Source of the DNA: Bacteroidales bacterium
Lineage (GTDB): Bacteria > Bacteroidota > Bacteroidia > Bacteroidales > UBA932
Length of the DNA: 64,000 bases
NCBI GenBank assembly: GCA_017554335.1
Contig: JAFZIO010000071.1
Location: forward strand, 1-64,000
Reading direction: 5' to 3'
Shown here: positions 2,033 through 62,280 of the stretch, one piece after another
Position numbering within the stretch: position 1 is the first letter of the stretch
Layout of the letters: each line of letters opens with the position of its first letter
Made by a program: the position numbers and the translations under genes
The notes under the pieces: generated by a model
What the model was told of the DNA's origin: nothing
The model's database searches: none
The model's input: the letters and a program-made list of their open reading frames with translations, nothing else

Positions 2033-4813
2033 ATGGCAGAAATCAGAATAAGCAAACTTTTAAAGCAGTTCAACATCGGTCTCGGCGACCTTGTGGAGTT
2101 CCTCCGCAAGAAGGGAGTCGAGATTGACGAGAACCCCAACGCCAAGGTCTCCGACGAGTATCTTCCCGAGCTTCACAAGCAGTTCGGAAAGGACAAGGAA
2201 GCGATGGAGCAGGCGGCGATGGTGGATATCAAGGTAAAGGAGATTCTGGAGAAGACCAGCCGCAAGCAGTCTTCCCAGGAAGAAGAAGAGGAGGAAGAGG
2301 AGTTGACCATCAAGTCCAACACCTTCTTCAATCCCAAGAAGGCTGCGGAGAAGAAGCAGGAGGAGCCTGCTCCCGAACCGGAGCCCGTGGTTGAAGAGCC
2401 CGCCCCTGCACCCGAACCGGAACCGGAGCCCGTGGTTGAAGAACCCGCTCCTGCACCCGAACCGGAACCTGAGCCGGAACCCGTCGTGGAAGAACCCGCT
2501 CCCGAGCCTCAGCCCGAGCCGGCACCAGAGGCACCCACTCCCGTTGAGGAGGTGCCCGCCGAGCCCGCAGTTCCCGAGACTCCCGTTGAGGCCCCTGCAG
2601 CACCCGTGGTTGCTCCTGCACCTGCAGCAGCACCCGCCGCAGCCGCTGCAGACGCATCTCCGTTCAAGGTTGTCGGCAAGGTCGACCTCAGCCAGTTCGA
2701 CCGCAAGCCTGCCAAGCGCGAGCGTATAGGCAAGGGCGCCCAGAAAGTGGACGTTGTGAAGGCAGGCGCAGGCCTGGACCGCAACGCCGGCAAGAAGGAC
2801 AAGCCCAAGAACGCTCCTGCCCAGCCCGCTCCCGGACAGGGCAAGCGCAAGCGTGACCGCGACCGCTTCAAGCCCGCAATGACGGAGGCCGAGCAGGAAG
2901 AGATGCAGAAGGAGATCCAGAAGCAGGTCAAGGAGACCTACGCCAAGATGAACGAGGGCAAGAAGAACAACTTCGGCGCCAAGTACCGCAAGGAGAAGCG
3001 CGAAGCTGCAGCCCAGCGTACACAGGAAGAGATGGCGGAGGCGATGGCCGAGCAGAAGGTGCTGAAAGTCACCGAGTTCGTTACCGTCAATGACCTGGCT
3101 ACCCTGATGAACAACACTCCTGTGGTGAAGGTTATAGGCGCCTGCATGAGCCTTGGTCTCATGGTGTCCATCAACCAGCGTCTCGACGCCGAGACCCTTG
3201 TGCTGGTGGCGGAGGAATTCGGCTACAAGGTTGAATTCGTGACCGCCGAGCTCTCAGAGGAGCTTAACTCCAACGAGCAGCCCGACCGTCCGGAAGACCT
3301 CCAGCCGCGCGAGCCTATCATCACCGTCATGGGACACGTCGATCACGGTAAGACTTCGCTCCTCGACTATATTCGCAAGACCAACGTTATCGCCGGCGAG
3401 GCCGGTGGTATCACCCAGCACATCGGTGCTTACAGCGTGAAGCTGGAGGACGGCCGCAAGATTACCTTCCTGGATACCCCCGGACACGAGGCCTTTACAG
3501 CCATGCGTGCACGTGGCGCCCAGATGACCGACCTTGCGATTATTATTGTCGCTGCCGACGACGCCGTGATGCCCCAGACCATTGAGGCTATCAACCACGC
3601 CCAGGCCGCCAACGTACCTATGGTCTTTGCCATCAATAAGATAGACAAGCCGGGCGCAGATCCCGAGAAGATACGCCGCCAGCTGTCCGAGATGAATATT
3701 CTGGTAGAGGACTGGGGCGGTAAGTACCAGTGCCAGGAAATCTCTGCCAAGAAGGGTATCAACGTGGACAAGCTGCTGGACAAGGTGCTCCTTGAGACCG
3801 ACCTGCTTGAGCTTAAGGCCAACCCCAACAAGCTCGCCAGCGGCGCCGTCATCGAGTCTTCCCTGGACAAGGGCCGCGGCTATCTGGCCACCGTGCTGGT
3901 TCAGGAGGGAACCCTCCATCAGGGCGACGTGATGCTTTGCGGAAGCTACTACGGACGCGTGAGGGGTATGTTCAACGAACGTGGACAGAAGGTTCAGGAG
4001 GCTGGTCCTTCCACCCCTGTCTCCGTGCTCGGTCTGAACGGCGCTCCTGCCGCAGGTGAGAAATTCAACATCCTCACCGACGAGAAAGAGGCCAAGAGCA
4101 TCGCCGCCAAGCGCGAGCAGCTCATCCGCATCCAGGGCATCAAGACCCAGAAGCATATGACCCTCGAGGAGATCGGCCGCCGTATCGCCATCGGCAACTT
4201 CAAGGAACTCAACGTCATCGTCAAGGGCGACGTGGACGGTTCCGTGGAAGCTCTGTCCGACTCCCTCATCAAGCTCAGCACCGAGGAGGTACGCGTGAAC
4301 GTTATCCACAAGGCCGTGGGTGCCATTTCCGAGTCCGACGTACTGCTGGCCGAGGCTTCCGACGCCGTTATCATCGGCTTCCAGGTCCGTCCTTCAGTGG
4401 AGGCCCGCAAGAGCGCCGACCGCGAGGGCATCGAAATCCGTCTCTACTCCGTCATCTACGACTGTATCAATGACGTGAAGGACGGTATCGAGGGTATGCT
4501 CGAGCCTGAGAAGAAGGAAGAGGTCATCGCTACCGCCGAGATCAAGCAGACCTTCAGGATTTCCAAGGTCGGAACCATCGCAGGATGTATTGTCCGCGAC
4601 GGAAAGATGGTCCAGAAGTCCAAGGTCCGCCTTATCCGCGACGGCATCGTCATCTACACCGGAGAGCTCGGCTCCCTGCAGATTGGCAAGGATTCCGTGA
4701 AGGAAGTCCCTGCAGGCAAGGAGTGCGGTATGAGCATCGCCGGCTACAACGACATCAAGGAGGGCGACGTGATCGAAGCCTTCCAGGTGGTTGAGATCAA
4801 GAGGACGCTGTAA
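2033..4813 (+). CDS. infB: Translation initiation factor IF-2
   Basis: IF-2 is the GTPase that places fMet-tRNA on the 30S subunit and promotes subunit joining. An N-terminal IF2_N module (about 1-55) precedes a long disordered linker rich in Pro, Glu and Ala. A basic segment follows, then the G domain with GHVDHGKT (P loop), DTPGHEAF (G3) and NKIDKPGA (G4), and the C-terminal beta-barrel and IF2-C domains. At 926 aa it is in the normal range. The linker contains near-repeats of a [13 protein letters not shown] unit that are also repeated in the DNA. It is the last gene of the rimP operon and is followed by a strong hairpin. Confidence 0.98.
2375..2530 (+). repeat. Tandem [13 protein letters not shown]-coding repeat in infB
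   Basis: The segment GAGCCCGTGGTTGAAGA recurs at 2381 and 2426, and a diverged copy (GAACCCGTCGTGGAAGA) begins at 2477, giving spacings of 45 and 51 nt, both multiples of three. It encodes Pro/Glu-rich units in the disordered IF-2 linker. Copy number probably varies between strains, as in other in-frame minisatellites. Confidence 0.75.
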
Positions 4814-8132: not shown

Positions 8133-8193
8133 ATGACATCATTTCCTTGCAAATGATGTCATTTTGACTTATTTTTGTAAAAAATGATGTCAT
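8133..8193 (+). promoter_or_regulatory. Promoter-operator of the toxin-antitoxin pair
   Basis: Three 12-nt half-sites are visible: ATGACATCATTT at 8133-8144, its exact inverse AAATGATGTCAT at 8151-8162, and a third identical AAATGATGTCAT at 8182-8193 that ends one base before the antitoxin ATG. The -7 box TATTTTTG (8170-8177) and a TTG at 8147-8149, 20 nt upstream, are flanked by these sites. The layout fits autorepression by the antitoxin-toxin complex. Confidence 0.8.
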
Positions 8194-8194
8194 T

Positions 8195-8485
8195 ATGGAT
8201 AGCGATAATACAAGAACGGTTCAGACTACAGTTCGCCTGCCTATCGAATTGGTAAATAGGGTAAAACGTCAGGCAAAGCGCGAAAACCGTTCTTTCAACA
8301 GCTTTGTGGAGCATACTCTGGACAAGGCGACTGAACTTGTCTTTCCCAAATTAAAGCCGGAAGACTTTATAATTTCTGATGAGATAAAGAACCTTGCCGG
8401 TTCAATCCCTGCACATAAATTCACCCGGGAGGAGCTTGACGCAGACCCTAAACTTGCCTATTTAGTAGAAAAGTTCAAATTATGA
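8195..8485 (+). CDS. Ribbon-helix-helix antitoxin
   Basis: A 96-aa protein beginning with RTVQTTVRLPIELVNRVKRQA, a beta strand followed by two helices typical of Arc/CopG-type DNA-binding domains, then NRSFNSFVEHTL. The C-terminal half (about 50-96) is probably the toxin-binding arm. It would neutralise the PIN toxin encoded next and bind the palindromic sites in front of its own start. Its stop overlaps the toxin start by 4 nt (ATGA), the usual coupling of type II modules. Base composition is more AT-rich than the surrounding genes, suggesting horizontal acquisition. Confidence 0.8.
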   Translation: MDSDNTRTVQTTVRLPIELVNRVKRQAKRENRSFNSFVEHTLDKATELVFPKLKPEDFIISDEIKNLAGSIPAHKFTREELDADPKLAYLVEKFKL

Positions 8486-23895: not shown

Positions 23896-25185
23896 CTAGA
23901 AAAGAACGAAAACAGCCTGACACGGGTTGGGGTCACCGGTGGCTATACCATGGATGGCATTGTTCACCGACGTGCCGATATTTTCATTGCTGCCAAGCAG
24001 GCCAAGAGAGCCCTGGAAGGCGTCACCAATATTCTGCTGGAGACCAACAATCACATTTTGACCCAGAATCTCGTTCAGGCCGACGATTTCGTTCCTGCCC
24101 ACGATCTCGTTCTTGCCCACGATTTCGTTCTTGCCGACGATTTCTTGCCTGCCAACAATTTCATTCTTGCCCACGATCTCGTTCTTGCCTACGATTTCGT
24201 TCTTGCCTACGATTTCGTTCTTGCCTACGATTTCGTTCTTGCCAACGATCTCGTTCTTGCCTACGATTTCGTTCTTACCGACGATCTCGTTCTTGCCAAC
24301 GATCTCGTTCTTGCCGACGATCTCATTCTTGCCAACGATTTCGTTCTTGCCGACGATCTCGTTCTTGCCGACGACCTCGTTGTTAAAGAAAGCCTGGTTG
24401 CAGCTGAGGATTTCGTTAGCCTGGAGCTCTGTACCGACGCCCATACATTGATTAATAGCCGAGTGGTTGACAACAATCTGCTGGAAGAGCGTGCTGAATT
24501 CTCCCAGAGCGGCAGCGCTTTGCTCGGATGTCAGAAGATATCCTTTGTCTTCAAGTGCGGCAGCGGCCTCGGCATTACCTTCAAGGGCTGCGCTTGCTTT
24601 CTGGTACTCTACCCACTGGTCGCGTACAAGCTTAAGGCCGTCTGTGCCTTCATTATTGGCCAGATATGCATCGGCAGTCTCAATGAAACGGTCGGCAAGC
24701 TCGTTCTGCTTCTGCATGGTGGTGTAAGCCAGAGCTGCATCTGCGGTACTCTGGGCGAGGTTCTCGGCTTCTTCGCCGCCCAGTGCTGCGTTCAAGTCAT
24801 CAGCTGCGGCATCCAATGCATCGCAAACGTTTTTTGCCATCTTCTTTGCCTTGCCCATGTCCTTGAGCACATCTTTGAACTCGGGGATGTTTCCGGCAAC
24901 TTCTTCAGATGCATCTACAAGGGCGCTGAATTCATTGGCGCGGGCGCTCATGACAACATAGCTCACTACGACGCCGTTCTTGAAGCCCTCGTCGCTCTGG
25001 AGTAACTCCTGCATGTTACTGATACCTCCTTCAGCGGTTTTACGGGAGAATTTGGCGGATTTGCTGATGTTGCCGCTGGAACTGCTATAGTCGATAGGCC
25101 AGTCAACAATACGGGAAACCACGTAACCAACAATGCAAATAGCCACTACAGAAATGATGATGTAGAGTGTTTTTTTGTTCTTCAT
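23896..25185 (-). CDS. Membrane-anchored hexapeptide-repeat protein (KNEIVG)n
   Basis: A 429-aa protein of unknown function. Residues about 6-25 form one N-terminal membrane anchor (LYIIISVVAICIVGYVVS). Residues about 50-265 are helical and Ala/Glu-rich with no recognised domain. Residues about 267-386 consist of 20 consecutive hexapeptides: 12 exact KNEIVG units, then RQEIVG, two more KNEIVG, RNEIVG and more degenerate units up to LQQNIG. The C terminus contains two cysteines' worth of unique sequence (NPCQAVFVLF). The period of six with I-V-G suggests a beta-solenoid or amyloid-like stack, but the pattern does not fit the classic left-handed-helix acyltransferase motif. It heads the operon with the metallopeptidase-barrel protein and the PrsW-like protease. 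Confidence 0.85.
   Translation of the reverse strand: MKNKKTLYIIISVVAICIVGYVVSRIVDWPIDYSSSSGNISKSAKFSRKTAEGGISNMQELLQSDEGFKNGVVVSYVVMSARANEFSALVDASEEVAGNIPEFKDVLKDMGKAKKMAKNVCDALDAAADDLNAALGGEEAENLAQSTADAALAYTTMQKQNELADRFIETADAYLANNEGTDGLKLVRDQWVEYQKASAALEGNAEAAAALEDKGYLLTSEQSAAALGEFSTLFQQIVVNHSAINQCMGVGTELQANEILSCNQAFFNNEVVGKNEIVGKNEIVGKNEIVGKNEIVGKNEIVGKNEIVGKNEIVGKNEIVGKNEIVGKNEIVGKNEIVGKNEIVGRQEIVGKNEIVGKNEIVGRNEIVGLNEILGQNVIVGLQQNIGDAFQGSLGLLGSNENIGTSVNNAIHGIATGDPNPCQAVFVLF
24029..24388 (-). repeat. 18-bp tandem repeat, about 20 units
   Basis: Seventeen well-conserved 18-bp units occupy 24083-24388 and about three degenerate units lie at 24029-24082. On the plus strand the unit reads ACGATYTCGTTCTTGCCN. 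Variation between units falls almost wholly at synonymous third positions (Y = T/C, N = any base), so the encoded KNEIVG is conserved better than the DNA. There are no spacers, so this is not a CRISPR array. Repeat number is probably variable by slippage. Confidence 0.95.
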
Positions 25186-43627: not shown

Positions 43628-46315
43628 ATGAAACTTTTTCTGATAGACGGCCACGCGCTGGTTTTCAAGATGTATTATGCCTTTCTGGGGCGCCCCATGG
43701 TGAATTCCAAGGGGGTGGATACATCTATACTTTTCGGCTTTACAAAGTATCTGCTTGAGCTTATCGACCGTGAGAAGCCAAGCCATATCGCTGTGAGTTT
43801 CGACCCTCCGGGGGGCACTTTCCGCAATCAGATGTATCCGGAATACAAGGCCAACCGAAGTGAAACTCCACAGCTGGTTATCGACGCCCTCGAGCCCCTG
43901 ACCTCCATCGTGCAGGCTCTTGACATACCTGTGCTGATGATCCCCGGCTTCGAGGCCGACGACGTTATAGGCTCCATGGCCCTGCGCAGCGCCGCAGAGG
44001 GCTTCGACGTGTATATGGTCACGCCGGACAAGGACTACGGTCAGCTTGTGGCCCCTCACGTATGGCAGTATAAGCCCGGCAAGTCCGGCTCCGACAATGA
44101 GATACTCGGCGAGGCCGAGGTGTGTGAAAAGTGGGGGATAGAGCGTACCGGGCAGGTTATAGACATCCTTACTATTTGCGGTGACGCATCCGACAACGTG
44201 CCCGGAGTTCAGGGCGTCGGCCCCGTGGGCGCGTCCAAGTTGCTCGGAAAGTATGGCAGCGTGGACGGCATCTATGAGCACCTCGGCGAGCTTACCGCAC
44301 GCCAGCAGGAGCTTTTCCGTGCCGCCCAGGACCACATTTCACTGTCCCGGGAGCTGGTGACCATCAAGACGGACATCCCTCTGGAGACCACGGCCGACGA
44401 TATGGTCCTGGACCTTGCCTGGACGCCGGCGGTGGAGACGCTTTTCAAGGAGTTCGAGTTCCCGTCGTTGATTCGCCTCGTGCGCAAAATCGCCGCGGAG
44501 GTCTCCGCCACTACTCCGCTTCGCAGGACCGGGGCTGCAGAACTGGGCTCTTCGAGCCCATCCCTCCCACTGCACTCCGTTTGTGGGCCCCTCCCGTTCA
44601 CGTGGTCACGGGCGGCCACGGTTCTGCAGTCCCCATCCTGCATCCGCTGCGAGGCGGCGGAGATAACAGATAGCCGTGTCGCAGTCAATCTGGTCGATGA
44701 TACCCTCTTCGTCGCTGACTCCCACGGAGTTGCGCAAGGAGAGCCGGAGCTGTTCCGTCAGCTTCTGGCAGACCCGCAGCGCACGAAGGTTGGCATCGCA
44801 CTCAAGCCCCAGCTTAACGCCCTCAGCCTCAAAGGCTTGGAGGTGGCCGGGCGGCTGGAAGACATAGAGTTGCTGCACTATCTGCTGAACCCGGAAAGCA
44901 GCCATAAACTCGACACGCTCGCCCCGACCTTCCTCGGCATCGAGCTGGAAGACAGCGACGCGCCGCTTCAGGGCTCGCTCTTCGACGACGCTCCCGCCGG
45001 CCCCGACCGCATCAAGGAGACGGCCGTCCTCCTGCCGCTCGCAGATGCCCTGCTGGAGGCGATGGAGCGCACTGACGCACGTCTTAAGCAGCTCTACGAC
45101 AGCATCGAGGAGCCCCTCATCCGTGTGCTCAGCCGCATGGAGCTGGCCGGCGTGAAAGTAGACCTTGGTGCCCTTCAGTCCTATTCCGACGGCCTCCGCG
45201 GGCAGGTCGCAAGCCTCGAGCAGGAGATACGCGGGCTGGCCGGCGAGCCAGAGCTCAACATCAACTCTCCCAAGCAGGTGGGCGAGCTTCTCTTCGAAAA
45301 GCTGAAGCTGGATCCTAAGGCGAAGAAGCCCCGTAAAGGCAACTGGCCCACGGACGAAAAGACGCTGCAGGAGCTTTCCGACCGCAGCCCTATAATCGAT
45401 AAGATACTCGACTACCGCGGCCTGCGCAAGCTGCTGGGAACCTATATCGAGCCCTTCCCGTCTTATGTCAGCCCCCGCGACGGACGGGTGCATACCACTT
45501 TCAACCAGGCCCTTACGGCCACAGGGCGGCTCTCCAGTTCCAACCCCAACCTGCAGAACATCCCCATACGTACCGAGCAGGGCAGGGAGATACGCAAGGC
45601 TTTCGTGCCCGAGTCGGCGGATTCCGTGATAATGAGTGCCGACTACTCCCAGATAGAGCTTCGGATTATGGCCCACCTGAGCGGCGACAGCCACATGCAG
45701 GCGGCCTTCCGCGATGGCACGGACGTACATGCCGCAACCGCCGCCAAGATCTTCCGCATTCCGGTGCAGGAGGTGACTCCGGACCAGCGGCGTATCGCAA
45801 AGACCGCCAACTTCGGCATAATGTACGGCATCTCCGCCTTCGGCCTCAGCCAGAACCTCGGATGCCCGCGTGCGGAAGCCAAGAAGCTGATAGACGACTA
45901 CTTCGAATCGTTCCCCAGCATACGTGCCTGGATTGACGGTACGCTTGCCGGCGCCCGTTCCAACGGATACGTGGAGACGATTCTGGGGCGCCGCCGCTAC
46001 GTGCCCGACGTGAACAGCGGCAATGCCACCGTGCGCGCTTTTGCCGAGCGGAATGCCGTCAACGCCCCTATCCAGGGTACCAGCGCCGACATAATCAAGC
46101 TGGCCATGATTGCGGTAGACCGCCGTCTCCGTGAGGAGGGCCTCAAGTCCCGTATGGTGCTGCAGATTCATGATGAACTGCTTCTGGAAGTGCCTGAGAC
46201 CGAGATCGAAGCTGTAAGCCGCCTGCTTACGGAAGAGATGCAGGGGGTGATTAAACTGAATGTTCCATTAACAGTAGAATGTAATTATGGCTCAAACTGG
46301 CTCGAGGCCCATTGA
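43628..46315 (+). CDS. polA: DNA polymerase I, with an in-frame palindromic insertion
   Basis: Removes RNA primers and fills gaps. The 5' nuclease domain (about 1-290) has MKLFLIDGHALVFK, FEADDVIGSMA and TPDKDYGQL. The polymerase domain has DYSQIELRIMAHLSGD (motif A), KTANFGIMYGISAFGL (motif B) and QIHDELLLEV (motif C). Between them the 3'-5' exonuclease domain is degraded: the DxE of motif I is absent, and its place is taken by an insertion (residues about 300-337) encoded by a palindromic repeat. Proofreading is therefore probably lost. The start MKLFLIDGHALV is chosen over an upstream ATG because it is the canonical N terminus. It is 895 aa and overlaps the ECF sigma gene by 29 nt. Confidence 0.95.
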   Translation: MKLFLIDGHALVFKMYYAFLGRPMVNSKGVDTSILFGFTKYLLELIDREKPSHIAVSFDPPGGTFRNQMYPEYKANRSETPQLVIDALEPLTSIVQALDIPVLMIPGFEADDVIGSMALRSAAEGFDVYMVTPDKDYGQLVAPHVWQYKPGKSGSDNEILGEAEVCEKWGIERTGQVIDILTICGDASDNVPGVQGVGPVGASKLLGKYGSVDGIYEHLGELTARQQELFRAAQDHISLSRELVTIKTDIPLETTADDMVLDLAWTPAVETLFKEFEFPSLIRLVRKIAAEVSATTPLRRTGAAELGSSSPSLPLHSVCGPLPFTWSRAATVLQSPSCIRCEAAEITDSRVAVNLVDDTLFVADSHGVAQGEPELFRQLLADPQRTKVGIALKPQLNALSLKGLEVAGRLEDIELLHYLLNPESSHKLDTLAPTFLGIELEDSDAPLQGSLFDDAPAGPDRIKETAVLLPLADALLEAMERTDARLKQLYDSIEEPLIRVLSRMELAGVKVDLGALQSYSDGLRGQVASLEQEIRGLAGEPELNINSPKQVGELLFEKLKLDPKAKKPRKGNWPTDEKTLQELSDRSPIIDKILDYRGLRKLLGTYIEPFPSYVSPRDGRVHTTFNQALTATGRLSSSNPNLQNIPIRTEQGREIRKAFVPESADSVIMSADYSQIELRIMAHLSGDSHMQAAFRDGTDVHAATAAKIFRIPVQEVTPDQRRIAKTANFGIMYGISAFGLSQNLGCPRAEAKKLIDDYFESFPSIRAWIDGTLAGARSNGYVETILGRRRYVPDVNSGNATVRAFAERNAVNAPIQGTSADIIKLAMIAVDRRLREEGLKSRMVLQIHDELLLEVPETEIEAVSRLLTEEMQGVIKLNVPLTVECNYGSNWLEAH
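44526..44638. repeat. Multi-hairpin palindromic element inside polA
   Basis: Outer arms GGACCGGGGCTGCAGAAC (44526-44543) and its complement at 44621-44638 match in 15 of 18 positions. Inner hairpins are GGGCTC/GAGCCC (44545-44559), CCCAC/GTGGG (44566-44587) and CCCGT/ACGGG (44593-44612). The core CATCCCTCCCA...TGGGCCCCTCCC is shared with the copy in the UvrD-like gene (61973-62005) and, in inverted form, with the one after tex. It is translated as SPSLPLHSVCGPLPFTW with flanks, unlike any polymerase sequence I know. Confidence 0.85.
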
Positions 46316-59764: not shown

Positions 59765-59777
59765 ATGCTTTAAGCAT
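59765..59777. promoter_or_regulatory. Palindrome between nqrA and the UvrD-like gene
   Basis: ATGCTTTAAGCAT is a perfect 13-nt palindrome around a central T, in the 71-nt divergent gap. It lies beside TATCTTCG (59786-59779, minus) for nqrA, while TATTTTCG (59800-59807, plus) ends 7 nt before the UvrD-like ATG. It may be an operator. Both -7 boxes share the same C deviation from TAnnTTTG. Confidence 0.4.
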
Positions 59778-59814
59778 GCGAAGATACCACTTTTTTTTGT
59801 ATTTTCGCGTCATT

Positions 59815-62280
59815 ATGGAGAACAATGTGCGTGCAATATTGGAAGAACTTAACGAGGAGCAGAGAAAAGCGGTCGAGTGCCTTGACGGGCCGGTGTTGAT
59901 TGTGGCGGGAGCGGGGTCCGGAAAGACCCGTGTTCTGACCAGCAGAGTGGCGAATGTCCTGGCGCACGGTTGTGATCCCTCCCGTGTGCTGGCTCTTACT
60001 TTTACCAAGAAGGCGGCCGGCGAGATGAAGGAAAGGATAGCCCTGATGGTCGGGTCCTGGAAGGCCCGAAGGGTAGTCATGGGCACCTTCCACTCGGTAT
60101 TCATCAGGTTCCTGAGAGACTATGCCCAAAGTCTGGGATATCCCGAGAATTTCACCATCTATGACCAGAGCGACTCCACCTCGGCGGTGAAGGCCGCCAT
60201 AAAGGAACTTGGCCTGGACGATGCCGTGTACAAGCCCAGAGAGGTGCTTTCCCGCATCTCCAATGCCAAGAACAGCCTGGTTACGGTAGCCGGATACAAG
60301 GCTGACGCGAATGCCCTGCGGGCGGACAGCTATGCAAAGAAACCCCGCATCGTGGACGTGTACGAGCGTTATCAGACCCGTATGAAGCAGTCCGGCGTGA
60401 TGGACTTCGACGACATCCTCGTCAACATGAACATCCTGCTCAGGGATAATAAGGATGCCTTGAACGACATAGCCTCCCGTTTCTCCTATATTATGGTAGA
60501 TGAGTATCAGGACACCAATTACGCCCAGTACCTCATCATCAAGAAGCTTTCTTCCGGGCACCGCAATATCTGCGTGGTGGGTGACGATTCCCAGTCGATT
60601 TACGCTTTCCGCGGCGCCCAGATACAGAATATCCTCAATTTCAAGAAAGATTACCCAGAGTGCAAACTCTTCCGGCTTGAGCGCAACTACCGCAGTACGC
60701 GCACCATAGTGGATGCCGCTAATTCCGTAATCGAGCACAACTCGGGCCGCATCCCCAAAAAGTGCTATGCAGAAGGGGAGGCCGGAGAAAAGATCAAGGT
60801 TCTGAAGACCTACACGGAGCAGGACGAGGCGGTCGAGATAGTCTCCGAAATCCAGTCCCGCATGCGCAAGGAAGGCGCCCGGTACGAAGATTTCGCAATC
60901 CTGTACCGCACCAACGCCCAGTCGCGTGCGCTTGAGGAGCAGCTCCGCCGCCGCAATATCCCTTACCATGTCTACTCCGGCAACTCGTTCTTCGAACGGG
61001 CGGAGGTTAAGGATATGATGGCCTACTTCAAACTGGCGGTGAACCCTCTGGACGACGAGTCCTTCAAGAGGGTGGTCAACAAGCCCGCCCGTGCGATAGG
61101 CGATACCACCCTTAAGGCGCTTGAGGCTGCCGCCCTGGCCCATGGGACCCCGCTTTACCGCGCCGCCTTTCTGGACGACCTGGAGCAGTACGGCCTGAGG
61201 AGCGCCGCAGTTCTCAAACTCAGGGCCTTCTGCGCCATGATAGACGGCTTCTGCCAGAAGGTGAAGGGTACCGACGCCTTCGAGCTGGCGCAGCTGATTG
61301 CCCGCGAAAGCGGCCTCTGGCAGTTCTACAAGGACGATAATTCCATAGAAGGGCAGGCCCGTTTCGCGAATGTGGAAGAGCTGGTGAACTCCGTAGCCTC
61401 CTTCGTGGAGGACCGCAAGGACGAGGCTGCCGATTCCGAGGAGGCCGCCGATGCCGTCTACACCCTGGACGATTTTCTGGAGAACATAACGCTGCTGAGC
61501 AACGTGGATCTGGTGGATGAGGACGACATTAATAATAAGGTGGCTCTGATGACGGTCCATTCTGCCAAGGGCCTGGAATTCCCGTACGTTTTCGTGGCGG
61601 GAATGGAGGAGAACCTCTTCCCGAGCCAGTCTATGCTCATGAGCCAGAAAGACTTGGAGGAGGAACGCCGGCTCTTTTACGTAGCCGTCACACGCGCCAA
61701 GCGTGCCGTTGCCCTGTCATTCGCCGGCACCCGCATGCGCAACGGCCGCCACGAGTCCAACGCCCCCTCGCGCTTCCTGCGTGAGATTGATTCCCGCTAC
61801 CTCGACCATCCTCTGGACGATTCCGACTTTTCTTCCGACGGCCTCCGCCACGAATGGGGAGGTTTCGGAAGCAGGTGGACCGGAGGTCGCATGGACAAGT
61901 TCGGCGAGTCCGGCCGCAGCGAGCCTGGCGGGAGAAGAGGGCTCCCACAGAGCGGGTTCGCGCAGAGCGCTCATCCCTCCCATCGCGAGCGATGGGCCCC
62001 TCCCTCTAACGTGTCCGAGGGTGGACACGCCCGCCTTGTGGGCCCCTCTTCCCCCACCGCAGCAGCGGCCTCGCATCCCGTCGATCCGGACTTCGAGCCG
62101 CTGCCGATGACGGCGTTCAAAGTGGGCATGCGAATCGAACACAACAGATTCGGCCCCGGCGAAATACTCGAGATAACAGGCAACGTCCCCGAACTCAAAG
62201 CCCGCGTCCGCTTCGACGAACTCGGCGAGAAACTCCTCCTCCTCAAGTACGCCAAGATGCGGGAGGAAAAGAAAGGCTGA
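59815..62280 (+). CDS. UvrD/PcrA-family DNA helicase with in-frame palindromic insertion
   Basis: A superfamily 1A 3'-5' helicase for repair and replication restart. Motifs: VAGAGSGKTRVL (I), FTKKAAGEM (Ia), VDEYQDTN (II), VVGDDSQSIYAFRGA (III), RLERNYRST (IV), MTVHSAKGLEFPYVFVAG (V), and FYVAVTRAKR (VI). The start MENNVRAILEELNEEQ is the usual N terminus. The C-terminal region contains an arginine/proline-rich stretch (residues about 707-746) encoded by a palindromic element. It is followed by GMRIEHNRFGPGEILEI, the Tudor-like domain that ends PcrA. At 821 aa it is slightly longer than typical because of the insertion. Confidence 0.95.
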   Translation: MENNVRAILEELNEEQRKAVECLDGPVLIVAGAGSGKTRVLTSRVANVLAHGCDPSRVLALTFTKKAAGEMKERIALMVGSWKARRVVMGTFHSVFIRFLRDYAQSLGYPENFTIYDQSDSTSAVKAAIKELGLDDAVYKPREVLSRISNAKNSLVTVAGYKADANALRADSYAKKPRIVDVYERYQTRMKQSGVMDFDDILVNMNILLRDNKDALNDIASRFSYIMVDEYQDTNYAQYLIIKKLSSGHRNICVVGDDSQSIYAFRGAQIQNILNFKKDYPECKLFRLERNYRSTRTIVDAANSVIEHNSGRIPKKCYAEGEAGEKIKVLKTYTEQDEAVEIVSEIQSRMRKEGARYEDFAILYRTNAQSRALEEQLRRRNIPYHVYSGNSFFERAEVKDMMAYFKLAVNPLDDESFKRVVNKPARAIGDTTLKALEAAALAHGTPLYRAAFLDDLEQYGLRSAAVLKLRAFCAMIDGFCQKVKGTDAFELAQLIARESGLWQFYKDDNSIEGQARFANVEELVNSVASFVEDRKDEAADSEEAADAVYTLDDFLENITLLSNVDLVDEDDINNKVALMTVHSAKGLEFPYVFVAGMEENLFPSQSMLMSQKDLEEERRLFYVAVTRAKRAVALSFAGTRMRNGRHESNAPSRFLREIDSRYLDHPLDDSDFSSDGLRHEWGGFGSRWTGGRMDKFGESGRSEPGGRRGLPQSGFAQSAHPSHRERWAPPSNVSEGGHARLVGPSSPTAAAASHPVDPDFEPLPMTAFKVGMRIEHNRFGPGEILEITGNVPELKARVRFDELGEKLLLLKYAKMREEKKG
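61934..62051. repeat. Multi-hairpin palindromic element inside the UvrD-like gene
   Basis: Outer arms GAAGAGGGCTCCCACA (61934-61949) and TGTGGGCCCCTCTTC (62037-62051) are near-perfect inverted repeats. Inner hairpins are CCCATCGC/GCGATGGG (61979-61996) and GTGTCC/GGACAC (62011-62028). The core CATCCCTCCCA...TGGGCCCCTCCC and the following ACGTG are shared with the copy in polA. The reading frame across the core differs from that in polA, yet both stay open. Translation here gives AHPSHRERWAPPSNVSEGGH. Confidence 0.85.

Follow-up and report, generated by a model that had tools for sequence, protein, structure and literature searches.

A family of pseudoknotted palindromes inserted within polA and other genes of gut Bacteroidales

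The polA gene of an uncultured gut Bacteroidales bacterium carries a palindrome inside its open reading frame, which raises the question of what this sequence is, how it came to lie in the gene for DNA polymerase I, and how the gene accommodates it. The window analyzed here is the whole stretch of 64,000 nt (positions 1 to 64,000 of contig JAFZIO010000071.1, assembly GCA_017554335.1); G and L numbers are our handles for genomes and loci. An earlier note on the window, made from its letters, had taken the insert for one of a family of palindromic elements residing in coding genes, and this interpretation is supported by many copies, variable sites, and open frames of many genes. The polA insert is a member of a dispersed mobile family. 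The family is real, mobile, and REP/RPE-like in behavior; its conserved fold is unusual, and its inversions are clear natural cases. The pseudoknot within this fold and the inversions in place are new beyond the earlier note.

Two copies of the element in the window

The polA gene and the parts of its insert are as follows (window positions); the feet are compared with those of copies in G180, a genome of another genus.

43628..46315, plus strand: polA (DNA polymerase I), host gene; open frame; Pfam 5'-3' exonuclease, degenerate 3'-5' exonuclease, DNA_pol_A
44514..44522, plus strand: probable 5' foot CTCCGCTTC, assigned by likeness; compare GGCTCC in G180 copies
44523..44543, plus strand: outer stem P1, 5' arm
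44545..44559, plus strand: hairpin A, GGGCTC-TTC-GAGCCC
44560..44565, plus strand: C-rich linker 5' of hairpin B; invariant alignment columns
44566..44587, plus strand: hairpin B, closing pairs CCCAC...GTGGG
44588..44592, plus strand: second C-rich linker; invariant alignment columns
44593..44597, plus strand: pseudoknot helix, 5' strand CCCGT
44601..44607, plus strand: hairpin C, 5' strand CGTGGTC
44608..44612, plus strand: pseudoknot helix, 3' strand ACGGG, within the loop of hairpin C
44614..44620, plus strand: hairpin C, 3' strand GGCCACG
44621..44641, plus strand: outer stem P1, 3' arm
44642..44647, plus strand: probable 3' foot ATCCGC, assigned by likeness; compare ATCCGCC in G180 copies

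As claimed, 15 of 18 positions agree between the terminal arms of the insert at 44526–44638, and each arm can be lengthened to 21 nt (44523–44543 and 44621–44641). The internal hairpins described earlier were located as hairpins A, B, and C, and the reading frame runs open through the insert. These 113 nt consist of the conserved core and the inner arms and are not necessarily the whole mobile unit. The insert had also been placed where motif I of the 3'-5' exonuclease should be, which is not borne out. It lies upstream of a domain that is already degenerate, the PF01612 match in PolA beginning only at profile position 54, and relatives with short linkers (L282 and L283) have similar sequence after the linker; motif I is therefore not displaced by the insert.

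The second copy, in a uvrD-like gene, has the same layout:

59776..62280, plus strand: uvrD/pcrA-like helicase, host gene; open frame; Pfam UvrD-helicase, UvrD_C, tudor domain
61934..61956, plus strand: 5' arm
61960..61970, plus strand: hairpin A
61979..61996, plus strand: hairpin B
62002..62006, plus strand: pseudoknot 5' strand CCCTC, in the same alignment columns as the family pseudoknot
62010..62029, plus strand: hairpin C (CGTGTCC...GGACACG), its loop holding the pseudoknot 3' strand GAGGG (62017–62021)
62030..62051, plus strand: 3' arm

The core that the polA and uvrD copies had been said to have in common is indeed 76% identical over 37 nt. A covariance model of the family (R1; see below) matched the window at 44524–44638 (E = 3.4e-20) and 61937–62047 (E = 1.7e-19), and it found no third copy there, the next-best match having E = 0.67. 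The window also holds an array of an 18-nt unit (23990–24438; 17 registered copies), which lies within open frames of both strands, and two tandem 31-nt AT-rich palindromic units (8134–8195; TGACATCATTT...AAATGATGTCA).

The copies have a conserved fold with an H-type pseudoknot

Model R1 and its alignment, A1, were built from the uvrD copy together with 29 of the 30 loci that were fetched; L029, which lacks the 5' core, was omitted. Read in the orientation of the polA copy, the element consists of a variable inverted arm, P1, of about 20 bp, hairpin A (variable stem, loop mostly of 3 nt), a CATCCCTCCC-type linker, hairpin B (variable stem), GGGCCCCTCCC, and a pseudoknot. What is conserved between the variable arms is the core of hairpin A, CCCTCCC, hairpin B, GGGCCCCTCCC, and the H-type pseudoknot, in which CCC and two variable bases pair with the loop of hairpin C.

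In the 30 sequences of A1, the pseudoknot helix was 100% paired, with changes on both sides in 14/30 and 10/30 sequences at its two variable pairs. The A1 structure as a whole was 95.7% paired, compared with 36.5 to 44.1% when it was slid by one to three columns. Among 66 copies collected with a pattern that fixes CCC and GGG, both variable pseudoknot pairs were complementary in every copy, in five combinations. The helix was likewise 99.7% paired in 72 distinct further copies (from 74 matches in other genomes, aligned with a model that omits the pseudoknot helix), and both sides had changed in 27/72 and 26/72 of them. A search with eight loci gave no Rfam family above its gathering score. The copies of G180, which look like a recent burst, have feet GGCTCC and ATCCGCC and an outermost stem, P0; the feet of the polA copy, CTCCGC and ATCCGC, are similar.

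Many copies are present, and sites differ between relatives

The earlier note had reasoned that many genomic copies and variable presence at orthologous sites would speak for mobility, and both were found. In the genome of the window (G000; 2.35 Mb, 75 contigs, 87.6% complete), BLAST with the polA insert gave 36 places at E ≤ 1 and 31 at E ≤ 1e-3, and related genomes hold further copies. Counting G000 each time, the family was matched in 87 of the 101 genus genomes (E ≤ 1e-3), in 32 of 99 genomes and 10 of 25 genera of the family sample, and in 2 of 118 genomes of the order sample (both E ≤ 1e-4). Element counts per genome are to be read as "at least," with 32 to 38 candidates scored. Plasmids and phages gave no match with one copy queried against each.

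Variable presence was seen in two pairs of genomes and on a PolA tree. Eight orthologous sites were compared between G180 and a close relative, G199. Four were empty in G199 with both flanks aligned, and at these the whole hairpin had been gained or lost as a unit, with a net difference of 125 to 174 nt:

L200: gap of 157 nt in G180, 2 nt in G199
L201: gap of 172 nt in G180, 11 nt in G199
L205: gap of 154 nt in G180, 29 nt in G199
L208: gap of 192 nt in G180, 18 nt in G199

At L209/L250, G199 lacks exactly 88 nt and keeps the base stem of the unit alone, from which it appears that hairpin cores may be lost leaving short stems. L198 is filled in both genomes, with about 60 nt extra inside, and L203 and L207, aligned on one side only, were excluded from the empty-site count. 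We also considered whether the outermost stem represents a terminator hairpin that was already there as the target; this was rejected where checked (L200 and L201), because the empty sites of the close relative are without both arms.

Between G000 and G027, whose PolA proteins are 89% identical, 20 sites were sorted by our own classification. Seven were filled in the same orientation, three were empty in G027 (trmB, tilS, and one intergenic site), one held the same copy inverted, four held a family member in opposite orientation, and five had other inserts or gave no alignment. The length differences at trmB (120 nt) and tilS (147 nt) are in frame. A second palindromic family, with a common core (GGCTACGTCC...GGC[TC]GAGTAACGCC) and long arms, is present in G027 where G000 has copies, at about 1629–1919 of L122 (dnaX site) and about 1328–1507 of L130 (atpG site).

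For the polA site itself, we sampled 80 loci from public Bacteroidales contigs (ruminant, horse, and other gut samples, a few of them Candidatus Cryptobacteroides). The PolA linker matched the family in 20 of the 80 at E ≤ 0.05, 10 per orientation, and in 16 at E ≤ 1e-5; L292, L316, L318, and L335 are weak matches (E from 1.7e-4 to 6e-3). On a PolA tree made without linker columns from 79 of 81 rows (L290 and L295, whose linker was read in the wrong frame, were omitted), presence requires at least 9 changes, and presence together with orientation at least 13. The window's PolA linker is 87 nt longer than the nearest short linker, that of L282. We did not accept L282 as a simple empty site: its flanks, by eye, keep arm-like sequence, so that it could have lost its core, as at L209/L250. 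In the polA linker of L036/L292, a palindrome reaches −163 kcal/mol; its outermost arms, some 25 nt long, are seemingly native PolA codons on both sides. The polA linkers of L044, L055, and L059 have other inserts resembling repeats, which read in translation as repeated DVIPTFP, SEAKDL, or SSEVEKSV.

Copies within genes keep the reading frame open

Sixteen of the 30 inspected copies of G000 lie within open frames of housekeeping genes, where they sit in linkers and loops of the proteins. Pfam domain matches flank the insert on either side or span it in polA, uvrD, a SpoU methylase gene, aroB, a penicillin-binding protein gene, tilS, fmt, thiL, a UDP-glucose dehydrogenase gene, atpG, and uvrA. 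Support was on one side only in 5 of the 16 (L007, L010, L015, L021, and L025), namely a THUMP-like gene, a radical SAM gene, dnaX, trmB, and a prmC-like gene. DNA-repair genes turn up repeatedly among the host genes, which agrees with the REP literature. At the aroB site (L013), two family members lie close together in opposite orientation within the one gene (R1 matches C23:4083-4242 and 4285-4403).

The 16 genic copies comprise both orientations and several frames, in agreement with the claim that in-frame insertion is tolerated in more than one frame. The further claim, that the element is coding compatible, held in part: frames do stay open, but not beyond what GC-rich composition gives, with 3.2 of 6 frames open per copy against 3.1 to 3.3 of 6 in shuffles. 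Since the number of open frames equals that of shuffled sequences, adaptation to coding was rejected. Genic copies were in plus orientation in 11 cases (12 with the prmC-like gene) and in minus orientation in 4, an excess that fits the twofold difference in open frames between the plus strand (140/198) and the minus strand (70/198). We suggest that selection purges insertions that disrupt the frame or introduce stops, which would leave genic copies translated as linkers.

The element inverts in place

At four pairs of loci, the element was found inverted in place, including within polA of related species. L012 of G000 and its G027 ortholog are 95.5% identical over 88 nt but oppositely oriented, and their downstream flanks are collinear; they are the best matches of each other, the next-best listed copy being 90.8% identical. 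Between L141 (G020) and L143 (G093), the element is, by reading, inverted between common flanks. In polA, the flanks of L298 and L309 align on the plus strand at 77 to 84%, while 133 nt of the element align on the minus strand at 91%; the two are sister rows on the PolA tree with a support of 100. For L310 and L308, which are close but not sisters, the minus-strand alignment covers 132 nt at 81%. The PolA frames of all four polA loci are open.

Pairing often extends past the inner arms. Of 20 G000 copies, 12 show additional inverted matching outside P1 at a shuffle p ≤ 0.05, compared with about 1 expected; where an element has an outermost stem of its own, the count takes it in. The left arm at atpG is identical to the G027 ortholog at 13 of 14 positions, so native codons take part in the pairing there. 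In hand-picked, illustrative comparisons, flanking bases pair at 13/14 positions in G000 versus 5/13 in G027 at atpG, and at 9/10 versus 4/10 at trmB; at fmt, also hand-picked and of uncertain register, the values are 12/12 and 5/12.

A possible course of events after insertion is that DNA polymerase switches template across the hairpin, which would copy one arm onto the other and flip the core. This one mechanism would explain both the matched yet variable arms and the flips. A study of yeast coding DNA reports template switching that homogenizes the arms of inverted repeats and inverts the spacers (PMC8604942).

Mobilization of the family

We propose that the elements move in trans, most likely through an IS200-like Y1 transposase of the TnpA-REP/RAYT type that would recognize one strand in its folded, single-stranded form, probably the G-rich strand. 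A role for Y1 in mobilizing the family is quite possible in our estimate, if somewhat short of probable. Within the genus, 78 of 101 genomes have Y1_Tnp matches, and Y1 is present in 76 of the 87 carriers of the element. The cross-table of Y1 by R1 (76/11/2/12; Fisher p = 8e-8) and its counterpart at completeness ≥ 90% (38/5/0/4; p = 7e-4) are both uncorrected for kinship. In 30 genomes of our own choosing, Y1 was found in 15 of 16 element-rich and 2 of 14 element-free genomes. IS110 was not associated with the element (1/16 element-rich versus 4/14 element-free) and was rejected as mobilizer.

Linkage to Y1 genes was nearly absent: of the 51 Y1 loci retrieved, L176 alone had family members close by at E < 0.001, in the form of two weak matches. 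G180, which is 96% complete and carries the copies of the apparent burst, had no Y1 match at E ≤ 0.01. An inverted-repeat scan found hairpins of another kind flanking 8 of 26 Y1 loci; the Y1 genes at L181, L186, L173, L175, L177, L263, and others have their own short, subfamily-specific hairpins in a REP-like arrangement. As for the strand, A.C mismatches outnumber G.T in P1 (51 versus 27; p = 0.009), which favors folding of the G-rich strand. Across the aligned helices the counts are 55 and 11, with 35 of the 55 A.C mismatches from one pair; the remaining 20 versus 11 are not significant.

Taken as a whole, we lean slightly toward an explanation in which this Bacteroidales family consists of non-autonomous, REP/RPE-like mobile palindromes, with Y1 acting in trans, template switching, and frame selection. 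That the elements form a new class is a tentative idea which we think rather doubtful; such an element would be conserved mainly as a three-dimensional fold, its pseudoknotted single strand would be the substrate of transposition, its arm sequence would be free, and by flipping in place in essential genes it would cause the linker to be read from the other strand.

The elements could instead be MITEs, deletion derivatives of a DDE insertion sequence that its transposase moves by way of terminal inverted repeats. Short, non-autonomous, multi-copy sequences with inverted ends would fit, but the four empty G199 sites gave no consistent target duplication by eye, the ends vary among copies of one genome, and a conserved central pseudoknot would be unexpected, so we regard this origin as unlikely. 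An RNA element copied back by reverse transcriptase, with the pseudoknot as the RNA fold that the enzyme recognizes, would account for the covarying H-type helix; RVT_1, however, is absent from the window's genome and showed no association (5/16 element-rich, 4/14 element-free), and we rejected reverse transcriptase as the mobilizer and hold this route to be very improbable. We give equally little credence to the view that the motif is a regulatory or structural RNA with a function, which selection has spread, and not a selfish mobile element: the conserved fold and the many intergenic copies close to gene ends agree with it, whereas copies in both orientations within genes, the repeated changes of presence at the polA site, and absence at orthologous sites do not. 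Hairpin elements within essential genes might also be bypassed or removed at the RNA level instead of translated, as with the byp hairpins of some yeast mitochondria. Bypass would require neither frames open through 16 gene copies nor differences in multiples of three, as at trmB, tilS, and polA, and it is accordingly highly improbable. Chance GC-rich palindromes or an assembly artefact, suggested by the metagenomic origin of the genomes, can be dismissed given E-values down to 1e-24, covariation, and matches concentrated in 87 of 101 genus genomes, with 116 of 118 order genomes having none.

Relation to known systems

The earlier note knew of no description for this group, and in the open-access literature, as far as its text was accessible, we found no earlier account of the family or its pseudoknot, nor of any such element inverting in place within a bacterial gene. 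In-gene palindromes, even in polA, uvrA, and uvrD of other phyla, are nevertheless already known. PMC3733652 places GTAG and CGTC REPs within ORFs in several species, many of these in genes of DNA synthesis and repair, with uvrA, UvrD helicase, and DNA polymerase I among them; it lists CGTC repeats in Bacteroidetes and recalls the RPEs of Rickettsia. Among the TnpA-REP subclasses of Bacteroidetes, the accessible text of PMC6006769 describes frame-keeping REP insertions for subclass 2.4 and atypical secondary structures for subclass 2.6, whose repeats are said to be without the tag too.

The present family resembles REP/REPIN sequences and their RAYT/TnpA-REP partners, as far as the sources describe them, in its dispersed multi-copy hairpins and its in-frame copies in ORFs; co-occurrence with Y1, seen in most carriers of the genus but not in G180, would be a further likeness. 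It differs in being longer, in its conserved pseudoknot core, and in not being linked to the Y1 genes examined. The GT[AG]G or CGTC foot tag of REPs was not seen, by reading, in the polA copy or in the G180 copies with recognizable ends. On the strength of these tag and linkage results, we do not file the family as REP. The Rickettsia RPEs and their Wolbachia counterparts are alike as palindromic repeats of similar size lying in frame in housekeeping genes (PMC3733652, accessible text); they belong to another phylum, and the same text mentions a pseudoknot 0 times. Uncultured gut Bacteroidales show a phenomenon otherwise best known from Rickettsia, palindromes colonizing the linkers of core proteins, among them PolA, UvrD, UvrA, DnaX, AtpG, Fmt, and TilS. 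With hundreds of related genomes at hand, what moves the elements and how hairpins evolve in coding DNA become testable.

The inversions have their closest parallel in template switching at inverted repeats in yeast, with in-place inversions and matched arms in coding DNA; in the accessible text, the inverted repeats there are not a dispersed mobile family (PMC8604942). Coding palindromes of Nematomorpha mitochondria are likewise inverted repeats with coding arms, and their abstract describes no dispersed insertion family (PMC6649704). The polA flips are clean natural cases of coding sequence inverted in place.
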